Shown here in pieces: positions 25,503-41,011 of a DNA stretch of 44,258 bases. Position 1 is the stretch's first letter. Every line of letters starts with the position of its first letter. The notes beneath the pieces were generated by a model, which saw only the letters and a list, made by a program, of their open reading frames with translations, was not told where the DNA came from and did no database searches. The translations under genes and the position numbers were made by a program. Where the stretch lies: positions 1 to 44,258 of the forward strand of contig NZ_ABOX02000055.1 in NCBI RefSeq assembly GCF_000172555.1, written 5' to 3'. The stretch comes from Pedosphaera parvula Ellin514. GTDB taxonomy: Bacteria; Verrucomicrobiota; Verrucomicrobiia; Limisphaerales; Pedosphaeraceae.

Positions 25503-28319
25503 TCATGGAGCGAATGAAGTGCCGGCTTGCGGGGAGGTGCTTAGTTTGCTGATGGCCGCTTTCAGTTCAGCGACGGTTTTTTCGAGGGTTTCGATGCGGG
25601 TGTCGCGTTCAGATAAGAGTTGGCGCATTTGCTGCACTGCGTTCGTTGAGGTGCCTTCGTGGGCTTTTACAAAGCAGAGGACAGTGCCGGTTTGTGTGCC
25701 GCGGCTTAGGTTCTCAGCAGTAAAGTTGTCCAAGGCGATGCCGATGGTTGAGCCGGTGCCGGTCGAGCGCATCGCGATGCCGGGAATGGAGGATGGGGCG
25801 AGGGTATCGCCAATGTGGACGGGGCCGTTTTCCAGGGAAACCTTGACGGGGACGCGTCCGGCGAGGACGAGAGGTTTGCCGGTGAGGGGAGCATCAACAG
25901 ATTTTCCGTTCGCATTGATGATGAATCCGCTGGTGCCGTCAGAGATAACGCCGAGGATGCCTTGGTTGTCTTTGCCGCAGCGGATGACGCTTTCGCGGCG
26001 CAAGGGATCGGCGCAGACGATGTCGCCGGCTTCCACATTGTCGGCGGCAGGAATCGTCTCGGCGAGATCCGGCGTGGTGCTGGCGAGGAACGAGCCGACG
26101 GCCCGGACATTGCCGGTGTTATCAATCGACATGCGATCACCAATCCCGCTCTGCCAAAAGGAGGCCTTGCCGTTTAAGGCATAAAAAGACCACTGCCCAT
26201 AGGTAGCCACCCCACCACGATCGTAGATATTAAGTTCGGCATTGGGGCCGGTGGAGATGAACATACCGCCGTAGACAGTGCCATTGGCGATGATGTTGCT
26301 GTTGACCGTCAACGTTCCGGCTGCCGTATTGATGTTGCTGGCTGTCACCGTTCCAGACACCGTGAGATTGGTGAGGGTGGCGCTGGATGTAATGATATTC
26401 GCGGGCAACTGGGCCGTCGGCACCGTTCCAGTGGTTAACTGCGAGGCGTTCAGGTTGGTCAAACCGCTTCCGTTGCCAGTAAACGTGCCGGTAGACGATC
26501 CAGAAAATGAACCAGCAAATGAGCCACCCAATGTGACACCGTTCTCGGTATTGGTCACTACTGCAGTTGGTAACCGCGCCAGCGGAACTGTACCGGAGGT
26601 AATTTGGCTTGCATTCAAGCTGGTCAACCCGGTGCCGTTGCCGGAGAAACTTCCATTATAGGCATAGATGAATCTCGGCGTGTTCGTCAGCACAGTCAGA
26701 GTGTTGGCATTGTGATTCGCACAAATCAAATCCACCAGACCGTCACCATTGACATTGGTTGCCACGACTGACACTGGAGCCTCGCCCACATCGAAAGTAT
26801 TGAAAAGGCCAAAATGCCCGGTGCCGTTGTTGGTCAGGACCGTCAGAATGGTGCTGCCCGAATCCGCACAGATCAAATCCACCTGACCGTCGCCGTTGAC
26901 ATCCGCCGCCGCAACCGAATACGGCGTTGGTCCCGCGCCCAGTGTAGAAGAAAGGGCGAAATGTCCCGCACCATCGTTGATCAGCACACTCAGCGAGCTA
27001 ACACTCATGTTCACGCTGATCAAATCCACCTTGCCGTCACCATTGACATCCGCTGCCGTGACCGAACCCGGACCAAAGCCCACGCCCGGCGAAGCGGAAA
27101 GGACAAAATGCCCCGTGCCGTCATTGGTCAGCACGGTGAGGGAGTTGCCACTAAAATTCGCACTGATCAAATCCGCCTTGCCATCACCGTTGACATCTGC
27201 CGCCGTAACGCCAAACGTTCCGCTGCCCGCGCCTGGCGAAGCGGAGACGGCAAAATGCCCGCTGCCGTCATTGGTCAGCACAGTGAGGGAGTTGCCACCA
27301 GAATTTGCACTGATCAAATCCACCTTGCTGTCACCGTTTATATCCGTCGCGATAACGCAATGCGGAAAACTGCCCACGCTCAGCAAAGCCGAAAAGATAA
27401 ATTGCCCGGTACCGGTATTAGTAAGCACGGTGAGGGTACTGTCATTTTGATTCGCACTGATCAAATCCACCTTGCCGTCGCCATTGACATCCGCTGCCGC
27501 GACTGAAGTCGGAGCGACTCCCACGCCCAGCGAAGCCGAAAGGGCAAAATTCCCCGCGCCGTCATTGGTCAGCACTGTCAGGTTGCCATTTTGATTGTTA
27601 GGGCCGTTATTTGCGCAGATCAAATCCAGCTTGCCGTCGCCATTGACATCGGCTGCCACGACCGAATTCGGACCAAGGCCTGTGCCCAGAAAAGCGGAGC
27701 GCACGAAGTTTCCCGAGGGGAGAGCGGTCGCGGCGATGGTGCCGCTGGAATTAACGCTCGCCAGATTGATATTGGTCACGCCGGCACCATCGCCGCTAAA
27801 CGTGCCGGTCAAATTCATTCCGGTCGCATTGTTGGTCACCACCGTTGGCGGCAATTGCGCCAGAGCAATCGTGCCGCTAATGTTCGTCGCAGCAATCGAA
27901 TCGGCGCTGGCCGCAGTCTGGGCCGTGCCTGCATTGGGAGCGAAGATCGCGTAAGGGGCTGGCGTCACCGGCTGAAGCGGAGCCAGCATGACATAAGGAT
28001 TTACGTTGCCATTGGTGCGCGCGCCGATTTGCAGCCAGTAATTGCTGCCGGTGAAAACACCTGCGCCGAAATCGAGCGTCGCGGTGAATAGGCCGTTACT
28101 AACGGCAGTGGCGCTGTTCGTGATTGGCCCGGCAACGGTGTTGCCGTTGATGCTGGCGTCAAACAAGGTAAACGTCAGATCAAAACTGCCATTAGCGGGA
28201 ACGCCATTATTTTGCAAATGGCCTTGATAGCTAAACGCGGTTCCCTGGGCCGAGGCTGACAAGGAGGTGAAGAAAAGTTGGCAGAGGGCAAGACAAGAGA
28301 AGAGATGCTTTAGTTTCAT
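25503..28319 (-). CDS. Giant secreted VCBS/FG-GAP repeat protein with Peptidase_G2-like tail
   Basis: This 938-residue exported protein has a signal peptide (MKLKHLFSCLALCQLFFTSL, cleavage near SASAQ) and the same N-terminal module as the gene at 22244-25219 (about 28-135). Seven VCBS/FG-GAP repeats of about 47 residues (about 205-545) follow, each with a calcium-loop motif like AADVNGDGKVDLI; repeats 3 and 7 are degenerate. 'GSFSGNGTGLTSLNASQITS' low-complexity modules occupy about 545-680. The region about 745-885 (DLAETIPAADNVEAGDIVCA, KDNQGILGVIS, LVLAGRVPVKVSLENGPVHI, GDTLAPSSIPGIAM) resembles the Peptidase_G2/IMC-like C-terminal module of fibre proteins. A coiled coil (about 893-920) ends it. 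A calcium-binding surface fibre or adhesin is likely by inference. Confidence 0.87.
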   Translation of the reverse strand: MKLKHLFSCLALCQLFFTSLSASAQGTAFSYQGHLQNNGVPANGSFDLTFTLFDASINGNTVAGPITNSATAVSNGLFTATLDFGAGVFTGSNYWLQIGARTNGNVNPYVMLAPLQPVTPAPYAIFAPNAGTAQTAASADSIAATNISGTIALAQLPPTVVTNNATGMNLTGTFSGDGAGVTNINLASVNSSGTIAATALPSGNFVRSAFLGTGLGPNSVVAADVNGDGKLDLICANNGPNNQNGNLTVLTNDGAGNFALSASLGVGVAPTSVAAADVNGDGKVDLISANQNDSTLTVLTNTGTGQFIFSALLSVGSFPHCVIATDINGDSKVDLISANSGGNSLTVLTNDGSGHFAVSASPGAGSGTFGVTAADVNGDGKADLISANFSGNSLTVLTNDGTGHFVLSASPGVGFGPGSVTAADVNGDGKVDLISVNMSVSSLSVLINDGAGHFALSSTLGAGPTPYSVAAADVNGDGQVDLICADSGSTILTVLTNNGTGHFGLFNTFDVGEAPVSVVATNVNGDGLVDLICANHNANTLTVLTNTPRFIYAYNGSFSGNGTGLTSLNASQITSGTVPLARLPTAVVTNTENGVTLGGSFAGSFSGSSTGTFTGNGSGLTNLNASQLTTGTVPTAQLPANIITSSATLTNLTVSGTVTASNINTAAGTLTVNSNIIANGTVYGGMFISTGPNAELNIYDRGGVATYGQWSFYALNGKASFWQSGIGDRMSIDNTGNVRAVGSFLASTTPDLAETIPAADNVEAGDIVCADPLRRESVIRCGKDNQGILGVISDGTSGFIINANGKSVDAPLTGKPLVLAGRVPVKVSLENGPVHIGDTLAPSSIPGIAMRSTGTGSTIGIALDNFTAENLSRGTQTGTVLCFVKAHEGTSTNAVQQMRQLLSERDTRIETLEKTVAELKAAISKLSTSPQAGTSFAP

Positions 28320-28409: not shown

Positions 28410-28698
28410 ACTTTCTGTAATTAAAGGGGGTGTGCTAGTCAAGGGCGAACGCGAACTCTTCCTTTCTAAAGCGCAAGAAGTGCGCTACGGCTCACAGGGC
28501 CTTCGGGTTGGTTTTATGAGGAAGATTGGGATTCAAATGCTGCAAAGATTTTTGAGGGTTGGACGATGTATGCCCACCCCTCGTTGAATTGTAAACAATG
28601 ATTCGCGAGACTTTTAAAAAGTCTTGATCTCATGCGTAAGCTTATTAATCATCGGTGAGTTTTGGGTGTTCCAGTTCTCGTTGTAATCATTTTGGTTC
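28410..28698. other. Intergenic region upstream of the split metalloprotease
   Basis: About 290 bp between divergent genes. A 17-base palindrome (AGACTTTT-A-AAAAGTCT, 28608-28624) lies about 75 bp before the protease start and could be an operator. No RNA gene seen. Confidence 0.4.
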
Positions 28699-29865
28699 AT
28701 GAAAAAATTAGTTGTTGTCCTTTGTGCGATCTTGGGCGTAACAGTCGTATTCTTGACGAGAAAGCCGTCATCCAGCAATGCGGTTACCGAGGTTCCTATA
28801 CCACTCACCACGACTCAAGCGACGTCCTCTCCAAAGCAGACTGTCCAGAAGCCGTCGGCGTCAACGCGAGATTCAAAAGCGGTCGGCAGCGTCGCTCCCG
28901 GGGCTTCGCAACAGTTCGCGGCATGGCTTGCGGTGTTTGATGCGAGGTCGGCGACGCCGGAGAAAATAGCGATAGGCCAAAAGCTGGCGGAGGCACGACG
29001 GGAGGAGATGAAGCAACTTATGCGCGACAATCCGCGTGAGGCTCTGGCACAGTCGGTTTCGTTGCATCAATGGGAGGCGTTGCCGCAATCAATTCGTGAG
29101 CAGGTGGAGAAACCTTTTAGCGAAATAGCAGATTACGATGTTTTATCTGATTGCCGGTCGACGGATGAGAAGCGGGAGTCGACGATGGCGACGCAGTTTG
29201 TCCGGGGTGAAGGCAAGGTTAATGTTTTTGGGTTATTCGAGGGAGTGCCATCCAAGACCGGTCTGCCGGTGCAAGGGATTTCGTTGGATGGAGAAGTGGT
29301 GTTGCGGAATGAGGTGTTGCAGGTGTTGGATGACGCTGATGCAGCAGCTGCGAGAAAGATGTTTGCAGAGGGGAATCCGGCGGATGAATCGTTGGTGACG
29401 GGTAAGAAGATTTCCGGTGGGAAGATTACAATACTGTGGGGCGGGAAAGTGTTCACTTTCGCGAGCACGGAGGAGTTGAATGAGGTGGAGAGCGCAATGG
29501 AGCAAGCGAGGGCGCAGGTTGGGCCTAACACGATGCAGGCCGTGATGGGGGTATATGCTACTGCGGCGTGGGGAGGGACGGGACAGAGCAGTGGTAATCC
29601 GACGACGATCAAGCCGCTTTCGTTTAATCCCGCCTGGTCAGCAACGCCCAAGAAGGTGCTGGTGGTACGCGTGGATTATACGCCACCAGCAAGCAATCCT
29701 TACACATTGACGATGCTGACCAATCTTTATGCGTCTGCGTCTAATTGTTACCTTGAGATGTCGTACAGCAATACCTGGTTGATTCCGACTTATGCGACGC
29801 AGGTGGTGCAGTTGCCCCATCCCGGCGAGCTATTATTTTACGAACAGCACTTACACTGCCAATAG
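28699..29865 (+). CDS. N-terminal part of a secreted M11-type metalloprotease (frame broken)
   Basis: This 388-residue frame begins with an N-terminal hydrophobic segment (KLVVVLCAILGVTVVFL) that acts as signal peptide or anchor, then a Ser/Thr/Pro-rich stretch and a helical, charged propeptide-like region (about 60-300). From about residue 300 it enters a metalloprotease fold (KKVLVVRVDYTPPASNPYTL, YLEMSYSNTWLIPTYA). After QLPHP (29821-29823) the frame turns to an unrelated tail GELLFYEQHLHCQ and stops. The next base in the +1 frame continues the protease (ASYYFTNSTYT), so this ORF and the next are one gene split by one extra base, probably a G at 29824-29825. The true coding part of this frame ends near 29823. 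It could be a real frameshift mutation, a sequencing error, or less likely programmed frameshifting. Confidence 0.85.
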   Translation: MKKLVVVLCAILGVTVVFLTRKPSSSNAVTEVPIPLTTTQATSSPKQTVQKPSASTRDSKAVGSVAPGASQQFAAWLAVFDARSATPEKIAIGQKLAEARREEMKQLMRDNPREALAQSVSLHQWEALPQSIREQVEKPFSEIADYDVLSDCRSTDEKRESTMATQFVRGEGKVNVFGLFEGVPSKTGLPVQGISLDGEVVLRNEVLQVLDDADAAAARKMFAEGNPADESLVTGKKISGGKITILWGGKVFTFASTEELNEVESAMEQARAQVGPNTMQAVMGVYATAAWGGTGQSSGNPTTIKPLSFNPAWSATPKKVLVVRVDYTPPASNPYTLTMLTNLYASASNCYLEMSYSNTWLIPTYATQVVQLPHPGELLFYEQHLHCQ

Positions 29866-32800
29866 CCAGGGGAATCTTGTGATTGTGGAAGGGTTGGCTG
29901 CCATCATTGCGGCAGGGTTGCAGACAACCAACTACGACACGGTTCATTTGCTCGCGCCAGATCCGTTGTCCTATGGAGGGGCGTTTGCGGCGATCGGGGG
30001 AAATTTTGCCTGGTTTAATGGCGTCATGCCGACCAATGTGATTGTACATGAGACCGGTCACAATTACGGACTGGGCCATGCAAATTCCATGCAGGACTTT
30101 ACGTCAAGTTGGTTGCTCAGCCCCAAGAGATCCAATGGTTCGTGGGTTGGTTCTGCGGAGTATGCTGACATTTATGACATGATGGGAGGCAGTGGGCCGC
30201 ACGCACCGTTTCCGAATAGTCATTTTCATGCCCGAGCCAAATATATGCTCAATTGGATTCCGCCTGGTCAGGTGGTGGATGCGACCACCAATGGTGTCTA
30301 TCGCATCTATTGCTTTGATCATCTGGAAACGCGTGCACTGGGGAAGCCAATGGCATTGCGTCTGACGGCAAATGGTGTGGAGATCTTTGGTGGTTTTCGC
30401 GAGCGCTACGCGAGTGCGCCTGATACGTCTGGGTTGTGCCTCGTGACAGGGGATGATCTATCTCGTGGCGGCCCGTCTCAATACCTTATCGATACCGTTC
30501 CTCTGCCCGTTGTGAGCAACAACGTGGTGGTGAAAGATTTAGAGGACTCTCCGCTGGGGGTTGGTCAGTGGTGGGAAGATCCTTCGGGAACATTTCGTCT
30601 TCACACGGTTGCTCTTGGTGGAACCGGAGCGAATGCTTATGTGGATGTACAGGTGGAGAAGCTCGACAGCAATCCATTACAACTTTTCACGGATGCCACA
30701 CTGCGCACGAACGGATTGATGGGGAGTTACGTCAGTCGAAACCTTATGGCGACCAATCAGTTGGATTGGCGTGGGAATCAGACTATTTCGGGGCGGCGCG
30801 TGGATAAAACCCTTGATTTTGGGACTCCAGACTGGGGCAATAGTGCATCTGTTGGCATTACAGGTGGAAATGCCACGAACTGGGATAACTTTTCCGTGCA
30901 ATGGGATGGCGTGCTCGTGGTGAACCAGACAGTTGATGTAGTTCTGCGCAGTGATGATTGCAGCCAGATGTGGATTGATCTGAACCATGATGGCGTCTTT
31001 GCCACCAGTGGGCCGGAGTTCATTAATAACAATTGGGGCATTGGTCAATCAGCAACCGATTCCGCAGCAACGACGTTGAAACCGGGGACTTATGCGATAC
31101 GCATCCAGTACGTGGAAGGCGGAGGAGATAATGTTCTGAGATTGTTGACTACTGTGGAACCCTTTTCCGTGTATGCGGATGCCAATCTGACGACAAACGG
31201 TTTAGTGGGTAGTTACGTGAACACCAGCCTGCGCAGCGTTTCGGCGCAAACTGACTGGCGCACGTCGCAGACCATCGCTGGAACGCGGATTGACGCGTAT
31301 CCGGGGTTCTTCGACAGCGGCTGGGGTGATCGCACGACACTCCATCTCACGGGAGGAACCACCAATACCGATTGGGAAAATTTCTCGGTGCAATGGGACG
31401 GGTGGATTCAGGTCACGACGCCGATGACATTTGCTTCGCGCAGTGACGATGGCTCGCGGTTCTGGATCGACTTGAACAAAGATGGATCGTTCGGAAGCGC
31501 GGCACCGGAACTGGTGACCAATCACTGGGGTGTTCCAATGTCGGGAGAAATTTGGAGCGGCATGACTCCGGTGGTTAATCCCGGTAATTACCGCATTCGC
31601 ATTCAATATGAAGAAGGCAGTGGTGGAAACACGTTCGTACTCGCAGGACAAAAGGCGTGGACATCGCCAAGTTGTGCCGGCGGACAGACTTTGATCGTGG
31701 ACACGACGGCGAGTGAAGGTCCTGGGTCTCTTAGCGAGGCGATCAATACTTTGAACCAATGCGGCAGCGGAACTATCCAGATTACTGCTGCTGGCACGAT
31801 TCATTGTCCACCGTCGTTTAATCCAGCCATCCAAGGCCAGATAACGATTCAAGGACCGGGTGCGGGTTTGCTGCAACTGAGTGGTACGAATGCCCTGGGG
31901 GTGAGCAGCAATCTGTTTACGGTGGCCACTAATGGTTCGCTCATGCTCAGCGGGATGACATTGGCAGACGCGAACGGCATTTTCAACAGCGCCGGGACGA
32001 TCAATATGACCAATTGCACACTGGCTAATTTCGGGCCTTCATCGTCGGGTGTGGGTGCAGCGATTTATGTGACGGGGACACTGCGGCTGACGAACTGTGT
32101 TTTTGGCGCGCTGAAAGCATCCGCGACGAACGGCATGTTCGAAGTGCCACCGGGACAAACACTGGTATTGACGGGCTGTGGCACCCTGGGATTAACCAAT
32201 GGATTTCTCTGCAACTTTGGGACGACAGTGTTGAATGGTTTCACGGCGCATGATGGTGGGGCGGTGCGTGTCGGTGAAGGGTCCATGATTTACAATGCGG
32301 GTTCGTTGGTAGTAACCAACAGCCTGTTCACCAATGCTTTTGCGACTGGCGGTGCGATCGAAGTCGCGGCGAGCGGCACATTGACGGTGGCGAACAGCAC
32401 GTTCTCGGGTGTGAAAGGCGGCGCGATTTGCAATCGGGGGTTGACGATTGTGAATGGAACCCTGCTGACCAATTGTGTCTCTGGTATCATGCGAACTGGT
32501 GGCGCCATTTACAACGCGGGCTCTTTGCGGGTCACGAATTGTGTCTTTTCAGGGAATATTGCGGCGGGCGGAAATGGCGGAGGTGTTACCTCCGGTAACT
32601 GGGGTGGAGGCGGGGGTGGAGGCGGAGGTTTCGGTGGTGCCATTCATAATGAAGCCGGCGTTACTGTTGCACAAGGCTGCACGTTTCTGAACAACCAGGC
32701 ACGTGGCGGTGATGGCGGACATGGAGGTGTCGTCGCGAGTTATACGATACCTTATCCTGGCGGCACAGGTGGTTCTCCGCAAGGTGGCGTGGCACCAACA

Positions 32801-35446
32801 GGTAACTTTGATTTACCGGCCACACCTGGGATTGTAACGGGGGCGGGAGGCAGTGGCGAAGGGAGTTGGACCATGGGTTTCCCAGTTGGCGGCGCCGGTG
32901 CTTTCGGCGGTGGCGGCGGTGGCGGCGGCGGCAGGAACTATCCGGCCAGCTATCCTTTTTCAGACGGCGGTGCTGGCGGCACATTTGCAGGCAACGGTCA
33001 TGGAAATGATGGATCCTATCCTGGAGGCGGTGGTGGTGGTGCGGGTGGCGGTGGTGCCATTTGTGTCCTGACCGGCTCGGCAAGGGTGACGTCCTGTACG
33101 TTCTACGGCAATTCAGCAACGAATGGAATGGGAGGAGGGGGCGGTGGAGGAGATGGCCAGCCCGGACAGGGCCTTGGTGGCGCAATTTTTAACGTCGGTG
33201 GACAGCTCGCCATGACGGGCAACACTTTTGCTGGTAACAGAGCCGCGACCCTAGGTGACACGGTTTATGAGCTGGTGCAGCACTCGCCGGTCTCGAGCGG
33301 ATTGGTCGCGTACTGGGATTTCAATACTCCCGGAGCCAACACGAACGTCAATGATGTGTTCCTGACTTTTAGCGGAACCCTGCGGAACAGTTCGAGCAAC
33401 GCCTGGGTGAGTGGAGTGCTGAGCAATGCGCTCTCCTTTAATGGCACCAATGCTTACGTGTATGTGCCGACTTCTCCCTTGTCCACCAATGGCACGCTCT
33501 CGGGCGCGGCCTGGGCGTGGGCAGACAGTCGTGGTGCCTGGGCTACGATCATGAAGAATTGGGGATCGACCCTGGCCGGGCAATTTCACTTCGGGCTGGA
33601 AGATCCCACTGGCCGGTTGAACCTCTACATTCAACAACAAGATGGGACGCAAGTCGGTTTGAGCGAGCCGGCACAGTTTCCGACCAACTCCTGGCAGCAT
33701 GTGGCGTTTGTAGCCGATGGGACAATGCTCCGATTGTATCGCAATGGAGTTCAGGTGGCCGCGACGAATTACGACGGCACGCTACGCACTCCTTCGCCGG
33801 TGACGCTGCTTACCATGGGCGCGAAGCTTAACGACGCGGGCACCGCTCCTGATCCCAGCAGTTTTTGGCGCGGCAGGCTGGATGAAATGGCCATTTGGAC
33901 CCGTCCGCTGGGCAGCAACGAAGTGATGAACCTGTACCAGGCGGCGGGATCGAAGCTGGGCACAATGGCATACGCCAATTTGCTGGCGGTGACGCTTCCG
34001 CCAACGATCACGAACACAAGCAGTGCGGTTGTGAGCGGAATGATCAATCCAGGCGGGTTGAATTCACTGGCGTGGTTCGAATGGGAATCGATTTCTCCGT
34101 ACGCCGGCTATGCCACGCCGCCAGTGCTGGTGAGCGGCACCAACAATGTGAATATTACCAATGTCCTCAATGGATTGCAGGTGGGCGGGAGATACGGTTA
34201 TCACATTGTTGTCAGCAACGCATTTGGTGTGGCGGTGGGTACAAATTTCTCCCTGCCATTCGGAGCGCCTGTCGTCGTTACGCTTCCTCCGTCACAAGTC
34301 ACTTATGATACGGCGGTGTGGCACGGGACAGTCGATTCCGGTGTTCTCCCGGCAAAGGGGTGGTTTGAATGGTATGTAAACGGGGTAGGCACGACGAGCG
34401 CGCCGGTGGTGATTCCTGCCTATTCGGATACCATGCCCTTGGATTTGTCTGTTTCAAATTTGATCATTGGTGGAACTTACCAGGTCAGGTTCTGTGCGAG
34501 TAATTCCCTGGATGTGGCCTATGGCCAGTACTATGGCACGAATCTTTACAGCGCCGGTTCATATCCGGCCTTTAGCGACAAACTGGTTGCCTACTGGCCT
34601 TTCGATGAAACGAATGGTTTCGTTTTACATGATGCCAGCGGTTCCACGAATGATGCCACGATAATTACCACCCGTCCGAATCCAACATGGACCCCGGGCA
34701 TTCTTGGTGGTGGATTGGAATTAGATGGGACCGAATGTGCCATTGTTACCAATTATCCGAAGGCTACAACTGCGCTGACTTTTTCAGGCTGGGTTTGGGC
34801 GGAGTATCCGCCTACCTGGGCAACGATTGTCAAGAATTGGGGTGACAACCAGGCAGGACAATTCCATCTGGGAATGCTTGAGGGGCAGGGGTATGTCAGC
34901 CTTTACTCGGGGGATAGTCCAACCTATGTGCGGGACCCGGTTATGCCCATGGGATCATGGCAGCATTTTGCATTTATCATCGAGACGAATTTGATTGCTC
35001 TCTACCACAACGGGGTGCTTAAAGATAGACACCTTTTGGATGTCAATACGCTGCTGAATAATAATATTCAATCGCTCGGTATCGGGGCGAAACCATCGGA
35101 TGATCCTGGCTCTATCTCTCAACTCACTCCTGGATATTGGTCCGGCAAGTTTGATGATTTCGCTCTTTGGAACCGTGCGCTGACGGATGATGAAATCGCC
35201 TTGATTTATCGTTCCGGCAGTTTTGGCTACAGCCTCAAGTCACTCATGGCGGCGCCACATATCACAGTTATGCGTAGTGGAAGCAATCTCAACCTGGGCT
35301 GGCCAGCGGGGTTGGTGGGTTATCATCTGGAGCAAAGCCCGACTGTGAATGGTCCAAATTGGACGGCGGTATCGGGTGTGACGACGAATGGCTACACGGT
35401 GCCTGCGGCGGGGAGTGCGATGTTTTATCGGTTGCACGGTCCGTGA
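29792..35446 (+). CDS. Main part of giant M11-type metalloprotease with PA14, beta-helix and LamG modules
   Basis: The real reading in this frame starts near 29825. Its ATG at 29792 is an accident of overlap with the preceding ORF, which supplies signal and propeptide. Joined, the protein would be about 2,250 residues. The zinc site HETGHNYGLGHA (30047 on) and the later EYADIYDMMGG (Met-turn) fit peptidase family M11 (gametolysin-like). After the protease come two PA14-like domains (about residues 298-453 and 458-620 of this frame: FSVQWDGVLVV, VVLRSDDCSQMWID). A right-handed beta-helix region with long Gly-rich loops follows (about 630-1157), then a LamG/concanavalin-type domain (about 1165-1400), two Fn3-like repeats (1408-1585), a second LamG (about 1595-1800) and a C-terminal sheet ending MFYRLHGP. 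It probably acts outside the cell on polymers. Function depends on whether the frame is intact in vivo. Confidence 0.85.
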   Translation: MRRRWCSCPIPASYYFTNSTYTANSQGNLVIVEGLAAIIAAGLQTTNYDTVHLLAPDPLSYGGAFAAIGGNFAWFNGVMPTNVIVHETGHNYGLGHANSMQDFTSSWLLSPKRSNGSWVGSAEYADIYDMMGGSGPHAPFPNSHFHARAKYMLNWIPPGQVVDATTNGVYRIYCFDHLETRALGKPMALRLTANGVEIFGGFRERYASAPDTSGLCLVTGDDLSRGGPSQYLIDTVPLPVVSNNVVVKDLEDSPLGVGQWWEDPSGTFRLHTVALGGTGANAYVDVQVEKLDSNPLQLFTDATLRTNGLMGSYVSRNLMATNQLDWRGNQTISGRRVDKTLDFGTPDWGNSASVGITGGNATNWDNFSVQWDGVLVVNQTVDVVLRSDDCSQMWIDLNHDGVFATSGPEFINNNWGIGQSATDSAATTLKPGTYAIRIQYVEGGGDNVLRLLTTVEPFSVYADANLTTNGLVGSYVNTSLRSVSAQTDWRTSQTIAGTRIDAYPGFFDSGWGDRTTLHLTGGTTNTDWENFSVQWDGWIQVTTPMTFASRSDDGSRFWIDLNKDGSFGSAAPELVTNHWGVPMSGEIWSGMTPVVNPGNYRIRIQYEEGSGGNTFVLAGQKAWTSPSCAGGQTLIVDTTASEGPGSLSEAINTLNQCGSGTIQITAAGTIHCPPSFNPAIQGQITIQGPGAGLLQLSGTNALGVSSNLFTVATNGSLMLSGMTLADANGIFNSAGTINMTNCTLANFGPSSSGVGAAIYVTGTLRLTNCVFGALKASATNGMFEVPPGQTLVLTGCGTLGLTNGFLCNFGTTVLNGFTAHDGGAVRVGEGSMIYNAGSLVVTNSLFTNAFATGGAIEVAASGTLTVANSTFSGVKGGAICNRGLTIVNGTLLTNCVSGIMRTGGAIYNAGSLRVTNCVFSGNIAAGGNGGGVTSGNWGGGGGGGGGFGGAIHNEAGVTVAQGCTFLNNQARGGDGGHGGVVASYTIPYPGGTGGSPQGGVAPTGNFDLPATPGIVTGAGGSGEGSWTMGFPVGGAGAFGGGGGGGGGRNYPASYPFSDGGAGGTFAGNGHGNDGSYPGGGGGGAGGGGAICVLTGSARVTSCTFYGNSATNGMGGGGGGGDGQPGQGLGGAIFNVGGQLAMTGNTFAGNRAATLGDTVYELVQHSPVSSGLVAYWDFNTPGANTNVNDVFLTFSGTLRNSSSNAWVSGVLSNALSFNGTNAYVYVPTSPLSTNGTLSGAAWAWADSRGAWATIMKNWGSTLAGQFHFGLEDPTGRLNLYIQQQDGTQVGLSEPAQFPTNSWQHVAFVADGTMLRLYRNGVQVAATNYDGTLRTPSPVTLLTMGAKLNDAGTAPDPSSFWRGRLDEMAIWTRPLGSNEVMNLYQAAGSKLGTMAYANLLAVTLPPTITNTSSAVVSGMINPGGLNSLAWFEWESISPYAGYATPPVLVSGTNNVNITNVLNGLQVGGRYGYHIVVSNAFGVAVGTNFSLPFGAPVVVTLPPSQVTYDTAVWHGTVDSGVLPAKGWFEWYVNGVGTTSAPVVIPAYSDTMPLDLSVSNLIIGGTYQVRFCASNSLDVAYGQYYGTNLYSAGSYPAFSDKLVAYWPFDETNGFVLHDASGSTNDATIITTRPNPTWTPGILGGGLELDGTECAIVTNYPKATTALTFSGWVWAEYPPTWATIVKNWGDNQAGQFHLGMLEGQGYVSLYSGDSPTYVRDPVMPMGSWQHFAFIIETNLIALYHNGVLKDRHLLDVNTLLNNNIQSLGIGAKPSDDPGSISQLTPGYWSGKFDDFALWNRALTDDEIALIYRSGSFGYSLKSLMAAPHITVMRSGSNLNLGWPAGLVGYHLEQSPTVNGPNWTAVSGVTTNGYTVPAAGSAMFYRLHGP

Positions 35447-36410: not shown

Positions 36411-37355
36411 CTATTTTTTAATCTGTGGGGACAGTGCCTTATTTTTCTGTTCCTCCGGGATCGCGTTGGTCTGGCCAGGTGCCGAGCTTTGTGTTGGTGC
36501 ACCGCCCTCAGGGAGAGTGGATATCCGCGTGACTGTTAGTTCGACCACTTGAGCCACGTGTAAGTCCTCACGATCTTTGCCTTTCCAATTGGGGGTCATG
36601 AGCTTTAAAACCGCCCGTGCTGGAAATACAATTCCGTTTAGGTTAGTCGTTTCAAGTAATTGATAACTCAGTTCGTTAAATCCTTTATCAAACGGAGCAC
36701 CATGCCGAATAATCTTGGTCTCAACCTCCCCATTAGCTGCAACTTCGATATCGAGAGTCACCCCATTATTCGTGATGTTTAAATTCGAAAGAAAAGCACT
36801 TCCCGGTTTGAGATAGCTGGCCGTGTAATACCCTTCGTTCTGAGGATGGTTGAAAATATCTAGGCTGTCCCTACAGTTTGGGATAAGAGGAAATCTGCGA
36901 ATTCGCTTGCCGTCAATCAATGGCAATTCCGGCTTCGGACAGATACTCAACCAGAACGCAAACAGTTCAGTATTGCCAGCTGTAGGAAATGCAAGTGGAC
37001 AGACAACAGCTTCTGTTTTGGATTTGCTGGTAAACATTATGTAGCTACTTACGCCACCCGGAACCTTCCTGAAGTACTCGGCAGCTGGGCTATGTTCCTT
37101 TGGATTCTTGTAATTGAGTTCAGCCTGCCACCACCCATTGCTATAACTAAAAACGGCATTTCCTTCGGTTTCCCAGTAAGGTGTCGTTTGGCCATGCCTG
37201 ACAACCTTTCGCGTAATTTTCGCCTCGGCAACAAAAGGAGGCACAGCTTCCTCTGCCATGGTGGCTGGCACTGATCCGAAATTGAGCGCAACTATGATGA
37301 GAACCCACATCCAGGATAGGGCGTTCCATCTAATCCTTGGTCGCAAGTGAATCAT
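36411..37355 (-). CDS. Secreted protein of unknown function (family A, member 1)
   Basis: I do not recognise a named family. The 314-residue product starts with a signal peptide (WNALSWMWVLIIVALNFGSV, PATMAEEA). The start at ATG 37355 gives the best signal; a GTG at 37397 with AAGGA just before it would add 14 residues. The first third reads as beta strands with an alternating hydrophobic pattern (YWETEGNAVFSYSNGWWQAE) followed by YKNP. The layout is like the proteins at 37427-38536 and 39986-41011, so the three may be distant paralogs. A C-terminal tail (TQSSAPGQTNAIPEEQKNKA) is disordered. It has few Cys and no catalytic motif. Confidence 0.65.
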   Translation of the reverse strand: MIHLRPRIRWNALSWMWVLIIVALNFGSVPATMAEEAVPPFVAEAKITRKVVRHGQTTPYWETEGNAVFSYSNGWWQAELNYKNPKEHSPAAEYFRKVPGGVSSYIMFTSKSKTEAVVCPLAFPTAGNTELFAFWLSICPKPELPLIDGKRIRRFPLIPNCRDSLDIFNHPQNEGYYTASYLKPGSAFLSNLNITNNGVTLDIEVAANGEVETKIIRHGAPFDKGFNELSYQLLETTNLNGIVFPARAVLKLMTPNWKGKDREDLHVAQVVELTVTRISTLPEGGAPTQSSAPGQTNAIPEEQKNKALSPQIKK

Positions 37356-37426
37356 GTCGATCACAATTTCTGGCGGAAAGATTTTGTAACTTCTCACACT
37401 TCCTTGGGTTTGTTAATAAAGTTTAA

Positions 37427-38536
37427 TTAACGATCATTCGCAGATTTTCCATTGGATGGCGAGGAGATTGTTTTCAGAAGCTGGGTAGGTGGGGAATTTG
37501 AGTCGAGCATTTGCCTCGAAAGGCGATAATCACTCACAACGGTTTTACCAGGGATATGGACATCCAGTGACCTCCCTGAAGAAAAGCGTCCGGCCTTGAC
37601 GACCGAAGCCTCAATCGTTGTCTCTATTTTCGGCGTTTCACTTCCTAACCGTTTTGAGTTAAAACGGGTCAGTTTGAAATTAAGAGGCAGCGTTAAACCA
37701 TCTACATTGGTCACGCCATTTACCTCGTAATGCGCTGCGATTGACTCCGGCTTAATCCAGCCTGATTTTTTGAGGTCGTCGAGATAACCATCGGGAAGAA
37801 GTTGCTTGCCGGCCCAGCCATACACTGCATCGGAAACCAGGTTGGGATATTCAGTAAGCTGCTTCCAACTGGCCCGCCTAAAACGGGTTTTTTGCGGATT
37901 TCCATCATCCCAAATCTGAAGCAACATTTTATTGGTTCCATCCATCTGTCCGTTTGGAGGCGTAAAAGCAAACCAGAGAGTGGCGACATAGGACGAATCA
38001 ACTGGCGGGAACTTTCCTTTTGCCTCAACTGCAACCGCGACATTATGAATGTGGTTCGCAGCTTCCATTCCTACCGGAGCATTTGTGCTCCTACCATGGA
38101 TCAGGGACGAATTCGAGCTGGAGTAAACCTCGATGCGGGAGGTATTCGTAAAGTAGACATCCTCTCTTTTCGCTTTTTTCAGTTCAGCCTGTAAACTTCC
38201 AAATGGAGATTCTGAGCTACGGTAAGCCGATTCCAACACAGTCAATTTGAAAACAGAGTCATTCGTCGTGTAAGCTGCTTCATAATACCCAATGCCACCC
38301 TGGCCCTGAATCACTGGTTCGGTGCGGATACGCCATTTATTAGCGGCAACTTCCACCTCAAACATCATTACCTTTTTGTAAGTTGTTTTGCCCAAAGTAT
38401 CGAACCGAGTGTACGTGAGATAGCCCAGTGCTTCGTAACCATCCGCGGCGCAAACCGTGCCACCGCTGGCCAGCAATAGCAGAGTGAGCAAGCGGTGTAT
38501 GGACGGCAACAAACGCTTGATTAGGTTTCCATTCAT
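37427..38536 (-). CDS. Secreted protein of unknown function (family A, member 2)
   Basis: The 369-residue product has a signal peptide (RLLPSIHRLLTLLLLASGGT, VCAA) and then mainly beta-type sequence: GYLTYTRFDTLGKTTYKKVM, FEVEVAANKWRIRTEP, YYEAAYTTNDSVFKLTVLES. A later segment (GYLDDLKKSGWIKPESIAAH) is helical, and LTLPLNFKLTRFN is strand. No catalytic motif or known domain is seen. It lies 30 bp from the start of the downstream family member on the same strand (36411-37397), so the two may be co-transcribed. The strand order near the start resembles that of 36411-37355 and 39986-41011. Function unknown; probably periplasmic or outer-surface. Confidence 0.7.
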   Translation of the reverse strand: MNGNLIKRLLPSIHRLLTLLLLASGGTVCAADGYEALGYLTYTRFDTLGKTTYKKVMMFEVEVAANKWRIRTEPVIQGQGGIGYYEAAYTTNDSVFKLTVLESAYRSSESPFGSLQAELKKAKREDVYFTNTSRIEVYSSSNSSLIHGRSTNAPVGMEAANHIHNVAVAVEAKGKFPPVDSSYVATLWFAFTPPNGQMDGTNKMLLQIWDDGNPQKTRFRRASWKQLTEYPNLVSDAVYGWAGKQLLPDGYLDDLKKSGWIKPESIAAHYEVNGVTNVDGLTLPLNFKLTRFNSKRLGSETPKIETTIEASVVKAGRFSSGRSLDVHIPGKTVVSDYRLSRQMLDSNSPPTQLLKTISSPSNGKSANDR

Positions 38537-39985: not shown

Positions 39986-41011
39986 TCATTTGCTCTGGCC
40001 TGCATTCCCTGAAGTTTGCATTGCCTTTGAAAAGTTCCTTACCTCGTCGAGATAATTGGGTGCTTTTCCTTTTGCCTGTTCCGTCAAATGAGGATCGTCT
40101 TTCGGCGGCCAAGGTTGGTTCGTGAGCATGTAACCGACTGGAATGATGATGTCTTTTACCTTGATCCTCAAATCCGTGACACCAATGACCTCTCCGGATG
40201 CAGGGGCTTTGATGGGACTCGGATCGAGACTCACGATCTTTCCCTGCCCCAAATAACGCTCTTGAATTACTTCCGAGCTGCCTGGACTTAATCGCGTAAC
40301 AAGCCAGCTTGTCGGCACCGTCATCGTTCCGATATTGGTCCAGGTTAATGCTTCCAAGCGGCCCACTTTCATTCCCAGAGGAAGCTCAAATTGCATCCCC
40401 GGAACACTCAAGACAGTGGAGCCCACCCGGCTCTCCCTGCTTTCCTTAATCACTTTGAATTCCATATTGGCTAGCGGCATTTCCTTCTCTTCAGGATGTG
40501 CGCCGAAATATTGAACGCCGCCCGGCAAGCTGACTGACCAGGGTAGAATCACGGGTTTCTTCCATCGATCGGTCCCCAAGTCTCCAGCCACAGCTCCGAG
40601 CCAGACCGTGCGCGGAAAGAAACCTGCGGCTCCAGGCTGCATTTGGTCGGAGATGGTTGCGGTTACTATCCCAGCAGGAGGTGGTGGCAAACTCACCCTG
40701 CCGAAATTCGTTAGCGCGGGCGCGTTCCGGAGCAGACAATAAAGATTCGTTCCGTCGAAGACGCACTCTTCAACTGCGCCCGGCGAAAGGTATTTCGTTG
40801 TAATCAACCATGCCTGATCATAGCGGATCAATTCGAAGGTGCCCTGGTAGTTGGTTAGGACCTTACCGTCGCGTGAGTAGTTGGTCAGGCTCAAGGTTCC
40901 TGTCATTTCGAAGCGCGGGCCTGGAACTTGAGCATCTGCTGAGGACGCTGTTAGAAAGAGGGACGTCAAACAAAAGACCAGTTTGAGAATCGATTGATGC
41001 GATCTAATCAT
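39986..41011 (-). CDS. Secreted protein of unknown function (family A, member 3)
   Basis: The 341-residue product has a signal peptide (ILKLVFCLTSLFLTASSADA) and a beta-rich start (TGTLSLTNYSRDGKVLTNYQ, GTFELIRYDQAWLITTKY) that recalls members 1 and 2 (37355 and 38536), where a similar 'G-x-x-x-Y-x-x-x-G-K-x-x ... F-x-x-x-x-x-x-x-x-W-x-I' order occurs. A proline-rich turn (SLPPPPAGIV) and a basic tail (TEQAKGKAPNYLDEVRNFSK) are notable. No enzyme motif is seen. Convergent with the 39230-39766 gene, with repeat copy 2 between them. Function unknown. Confidence 0.7.
   Translation of the reverse strand: MIRSHQSILKLVFCLTSLFLTASSADAQVPGPRFEMTGTLSLTNYSRDGKVLTNYQGTFELIRYDQAWLITTKYLSPGAVEECVFDGTNLYCLLRNAPALTNFGRVSLPPPPAGIVTATISDQMQPGAAGFFPRTVWLGAVAGDLGTDRWKKPVILPWSVSLPGGVQYFGAHPEEKEMPLANMEFKVIKESRESRVGSTVLSVPGMQFELPLGMKVGRLEALTWTNIGTMTVPTSWLVTRLSPGSSEVIQERYLGQGKIVSLDPSPIKAPASGEVIGVTDLRIKVKDIIIPVGYMLTNQPWPPKDDPHLTEQAKGKAPNYLDEVRNFSKAMQTSGNAGQSK

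Follow-up and report, generated by a model that had tools for sequence, protein, structure and literature searches.

The closest described counterparts of the protein considered here are big, secreted metzincin proteases from the same, presumably verrucomicrobial, class. They are related to the Pfam family PF05548 (Peptidase M11) and share with it a propeptide-like N-terminal part, a domain carrying HExxHxxGxxH and D-x-M-G, and long reading frames. In contrast to them, the copy in the window is broken in frame, and its best relatives by E-value are only 33-38% identical over the catalytic part. Among curated families, PF10462 (Peptidase M66) gave the best match to the read-through catalytic domain (20.7 bits, with a cut-off of 20.6), but this match spans no more than 27 residues surrounding the zinc site, and the full-length read-through protein (P0003) falls below the cut-off at 16.9 bits. 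Proteases of the ADAM/ADAMTS type (M12B) and other metzincins were the best Foldseek matches, with target-normalised TM up to 0.57 at E <= 0.001, whereas their identity is 12-17%, their query-normalised TM at most 0.34 and their rmsd at least 5.7. With respect to the break itself, the gene resembles the singletons among the frameshift genes surveyed with GeneTack, which likewise have a lone, non-conserved frame change that intact homologues confirm (PMC3711429). That survey covered complete genomes, whereas the genome of the window is a draft.

Reading frames and domain layout

The window, which is the whole stretch of DNA that was analysed, is an entire contig of 44,258 bases from a 7,410,698-base draft in 102 contigs, presumably an early JGI-type assembly. 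The features of the protease locus are as follows.

28699-29865, plus strand: frame A ORF of 388 aa, the 5' piece, with a signal- or anchor-like N-terminal segment (by eye), a propeptide-like part and the start of the catalytic domain
28876-29598, plus strand: conserved propeptide-like region, residues about 60-300, whose profile from relatives matches 16 of 27 extra loci
29792-35446, plus strand: frame B ORF of 1884 aa, first ATG at 29792
29815-29825, plus strand: stretch CCCCATCCCGG holding the +1 frame change, placed from sequence and homology, with relatives favouring its 3' part, 29821-29825
29825-35446, plus strand: the 3' piece in frame B, with the rest of the catalytic domain, PA14/GEVED, a glycine-rich region and LamG-like domains
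30047-30079, plus strand: zinc site HETGHNYGLGH (HExxHxxGxxH), whose three H and one E are kept in all 38 rows of alignment A1
30161-30190, plus strand: candidate Met-turn YADIYDMMGG, with D209, M211 and G212 conserved in at least 90% of A1
30869-31129, plus strand: best PA14 match, residues 724-810, 40.5 bits (cut-off 24), two stretches counted
33440-33925, plus strand: best Laminin_G_3 match, residues 1581-1742, 131.1 bits (cut-off 27.6), two stretches counted, of which the other lies close to the C-terminus (by eye)

Both ORFs and the sequences ascribed to them in an earlier sequence-only reading were present as described. Frame A is open over 28687-29865 and frame B over 29783-35446, and therefore the frame change must fall within 29783-29865. 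The C-terminal end of frame A is QLPHPGELLFYEQHLHCQ, followed by the stop, while ASYYFTNSTYT and HETGHNYGLGH both lie in frame B. When the overlap was read with one +1 step, a protein of 2,248 residues without further stop was obtained and one alignment spanned the join, which bears out the smooth junction and the length of about 2,250 residues that had been proposed. Homology narrowed the frame change to anywhere in about 29815-29825, so that the extra base is assigned to this stretch and to no single letter in it. A change downstream of the CAT codon (29818-29820) would make residue 374 H, and one upstream of it would make it I; among 46 relatives H was found in 11 and I in none, and these counts favour a placement at 29821-29825, in line with the earlier placement within 29821-29829, which reads CCCGGCGAG. 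The matching part of frame A stops near 29823, and its last 13 residues are an out-of-frame tail. The sequence at the join, VVQLPHPASYY, has counterparts such as ITRLPQPSSYY and VVRLPHDATYY in relatives, residues 371-376 are gap-free in all 46 of them, and Y379 (residue 95 of P0004), invariant in the 37 aligned relatives, is absent from frame A. Frames A and B belong to a single protease gene, about 2,248 codons long, with a +1 frame change between them.

The read-through protein has PA14, GEVED and LamG matches in two stretches each. Alignment A1 consists of the domain from the window and 37 of the 46 relatives, the nine omitted being mostly shorter pieces. An AlphaFold model of the read-through domain, made with these 38 aligned sequences, had a pTM of 0.84 and a mean pLDDT of 81.7; in the model, junction residues 89-91 lie between a strand (77-81) and a helix (92-97), and the helix that bears the zinc site (161-171) belongs to the same domain. 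Against solved structures, Foldseek gave 31 matches at E <= 0.001 (5.7e-5 to 8.1e-4), to ADAM/ADAMTS and other metzincins, which would indicate, at best, a common core with metzincins. Membership of the metzincin clan is supported by the HExxHxxGxxH motif, the Met-turn and the fold, the last for the core only. The more specific label "M11-type", which had been given to the protein, fared less well: PF05548 (M11, cut-off 21 bits) was not listed for P0003 at E values up to 1 or for P0004 at E values up to 0.01, but 28 of the 38 members of A1 match M11 at E <= 0.01 (24 match M66) and two paralogues are above the cut-off, with 26.4 and 23.2 bits. NCBIfam gave one sub-threshold match, to an M6 domain (12.3 bits). 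The label is therefore too specific and only partly supported, and the Foldseek matches indicate metzincins broadly. As for the parts that had been named, the catalytic one is borne out by the zinc site and the fold, the signal segment is seen by eye, and the propeptide owes its name to its position. Taken together, the protein is probably a large metzincin protease, and the signal-like segment suggests that it would be secreted.

Relatives across the junction

Relatives were sought in 384 genomes drawn from the larger class, with up to six candidates per genome scored for the C-part (280 residues from the junction) and up to five for the N-part (residues 1-372). Besides the window's own, the C-part had at least 125 matching places and the N-part at least 114 in the same genomes. 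The two parts adjoin in 107 loci, 105 of which (68 genomes) form one open frame, in phase. The other 27 loci, namely two disrupted, seven N-only and 18 C-only, were scanned in all frames with a profile built from relatives only, in whose catalytic part the junction corresponds to column 65, and one ORF spanned this column in 25 of them. In total, at 130 of 132 related loci in the 384 genomes a single open frame runs past the position that corresponds to the junction; one exception lies at a contig end (G303:C63, L131), and the other (G110:C2, L129) has an N-like ORF for which no catalytic match was obtained. For 11 of the 18 C-only loci there was no propeptide-like match, and their catalytic part is uncut at the junction. 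Only one C-only locus has a catalytic match that starts after column 9 (at column 55), and it lies at a contig end (L136). Two loci of one genome (G159) were counted separately, both at contig ends, and are possibly one gene.

When both frames were aligned to intact homologues, as had been proposed, the halves proved to be one frame in the relatives. Homologues naturally divided into two genes here, which the sequence-only reading had named as the observation that would speak against one gene, were found at none of these loci, and a break at the window's point was found in none of the 132 loci. In relatives both halves are read without interruption; the window's break falls before the zinc site, in the same domain. 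Two loci are disrupted elsewhere: one relative has an in-frame TAG after most of the domain (L123, G345:C54), and another has a frame change that precedes the catalytic part, together with an early end (L124, G057:C102).

The alignments themselves run across the junction. For instance, with the ORF of one relative (L010) the halves score 149.7 and 103.1 bits separately, while the read-through protein scores 269.3 bits in a single alignment, which is above either half and makes the join more than chance. The best match of the read-through search (L039) aligns over residues 7-654 with 270.6 bits. Of 65 ORFs with a match, 61 align over the junction in one stretch; some loci share the same gene, and 46 distinct relatives were left after removal of duplicates. 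The relatives are distant, those best by E-value being about 33-38% identical in the catalytic part. The genome of the window itself has two paralogues, with identities of 33 and 35% over that part, and both are intact over the junction. The best relative among the order-search matches listed (G562:C568) is 38% identical and intact at the junction; its match begins at residue 312, without a propeptide-like part. The locus counts above do not draw on this order search. The one genome of the same genus that was searched had a match with 30-32% identity, and a degenerate-pattern search of the genome contigs for close relatives returned 41 stretches, of which none was confirmed.

Origin of the frame change

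We consider it very probable that one ancestral metzincin gene is interrupted here by a single accidental extra base in its catalytic domain. The ancestral state would be one gene for a large secreted metzincin protease, into which the extra base would bring a frame change within that domain. Should the sequence be correct, translation begun at 28699 would give about 375 matching residues and 13 others and stop at 29865; this stop precedes the zinc site, and a protease would not be made without a change of frame. Because the metzincin domain is interrupted before both the zinc site and the invariant tyrosine, neither half would be expected to act as a protease alone, and activity would presumably be lost. 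The causes that had been listed earlier for the break (a recent pseudogene, an error and, less likely, +1 frameshifting) remain the right ones to consider, with the last now much less likely.

That the two ORFs are separate functional genes, either as a split protease or through re-initiation at the ATG at 29792, which does open frame B within the overlap, is hardly credible. The split would fall inside one domain of the AlphaFold model, the second product would have neither a signal segment nor the first part of the catalytic domain, and no Shine-Dalgarno-like sequence is evident by eye just upstream of 29792. Furthermore, no relative was found to be split here, and the catalytic matches of the C-only loci start by column 9 except for the one at a contig end; a naturally split gene was rejected on the homologues, with 130 of 132 loci in one frame. 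Programmed +1 frameshifting, at CCC-G (29821) or at CCC-C (29815), which would yield the full protein, is very unlikely as well. It draws some support from CCC-C, described as +1-prone for tRNA-Pro in E. coli, with levels that reach 1% when it adjoins the start codon (PMC4519876), and the gene's sole in-frame CCCC falls at the junction (29815). However, a slip at CCC-C would give I at residue 374, which none of the 46 relatives has, and no conserved shift site was found, the break having been seen in no relative and 130 of 132 loci crossing in one frame. Typical of a +1 frameshift site are an A-site codon that is rare or a stop, and a Shine-Dalgarno sequence or a structure as stimulator. Here the next codon is GGC or CAT, the A-site stop is absent, the stop of the first frame (29863) lies 40 bases downstream, and RNA folds round the site are no better than those of shuffled sequences (z 0.82, -0.19 and 0.30). 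The sequence AGGTGG ends 14 bases upstream of the CCC at 29821, a spacing far from that in prfB, where the Shine-Dalgarno spacing is 3 bases. Moreover, CCC-G is the commonest context of CCC (77 of the 158 CCC codons counted across 19 pieces picked by eye out of the 45 ORFs of the window), it occurs in frame six more times in this gene, and the genome has tRNA-Pro genes with GGG, UGG and CGG, including one for CCC. Programmed frameshifting is therefore unlikely, because the break is unshared, there is neither an A-site stop nor a structure, CCC-G is common and a tRNA-Pro for CCC is present. The variant in which the full 2,248-residue protease would be made only by a +1 slip at the tRNA-Pro-prone CCC-C/CCC-G, as a species-private arrangement holding output low, has the same slim prospects. 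Transcriptional slippage was also considered and rejected, as no long run of A or T is seen by eye at the site.

Which accident interrupted the gene is a matter of weighing an error against a mutation, and we lean towards a sequencing or assembly error in the draft, in which case the gene in the cell would be intact and the whole protein made. The frame change is one isolated event in an otherwise open gene of 6.7 kb, the assembly is a draft, and the site lies within a short hairpin (29812-29828). This hairpin is unremarkable, however (z -0.19 for 29760-29830), terminator-like sites in the region are rarer than in shuffled sequences (5 vs 7.8), and the site has only short runs (CCCC, CCC and GG), with no long homopolymer of the kind where errors are typical. 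For frame changes confirmed by BLASTp and falling in no cluster, Antonov et al., in their treatment of singletons, expected sequencing errors rather than genuine indels, which would favour an error here; in the same treatment 11,433 of the annotated pseudogenes were singletons, so that genuine mutations can also stand alone (PMC3711429). A recent natural frameshift mutation, leaving a young pseudogene that is perhaps tolerated thanks to the two intact paralogues, is accordingly a quite plausible alternative to the error that we favour. Losses do occur in the family, since two of the 132 loci carry disruptions at positions of their own, and about 0.5% of the ORFs of P. parvula Ellin514 are given as pseudogenes where that figure is reported (PMC9600693). 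Against a mutation, neither piece has a further stop: an unselected gene would be expected to gain three stops by about 1.3-1.4% substitutions per site, and none beyond the break was observed in 2,248 codons. Any loss is therefore recent (below about 1.3-1.4% substitution) or not real.

An accidental break in such a gene is ordinary. For annotation, the two ORFs are best entered as one frameshifted protease gene and not as a short unknown protein followed by a signal-less lectin-like giant. A real break would mean that one member of the family was lost recently while two paralogues in the genome stayed intact. In the case of an error, the members of this family found here in the genome would number three and not two.

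Neighbouring genes and other observations

Downstream of the protease, three minus-strand genes (36411-37397, 37427-38536 and 39986-41011) for proteins that look secreted by eye lie close together; these proteins had no Pfam match at E <= 0.001. The first two were considered as a second split gene, which was dropped, as a separate hydrophobic segment resembling a signal opens each of them (by eye). A tandem repeat of 147 bases in 5.3 copies with 71% matches is present at 26804-27582, inside a large gene for an FG-GAP repeat protein on the minus strand (25503-28319). In another contig (G000:C6, 187800-202500; L112, L113 and L114), ARAGORN predicted a cluster of 15 tRNA genes on one strand, many of which score low in Rfam, while the anticodons of several are also found elsewhere in the genome; we take this cluster to resemble the tRNA array of a mobile element.
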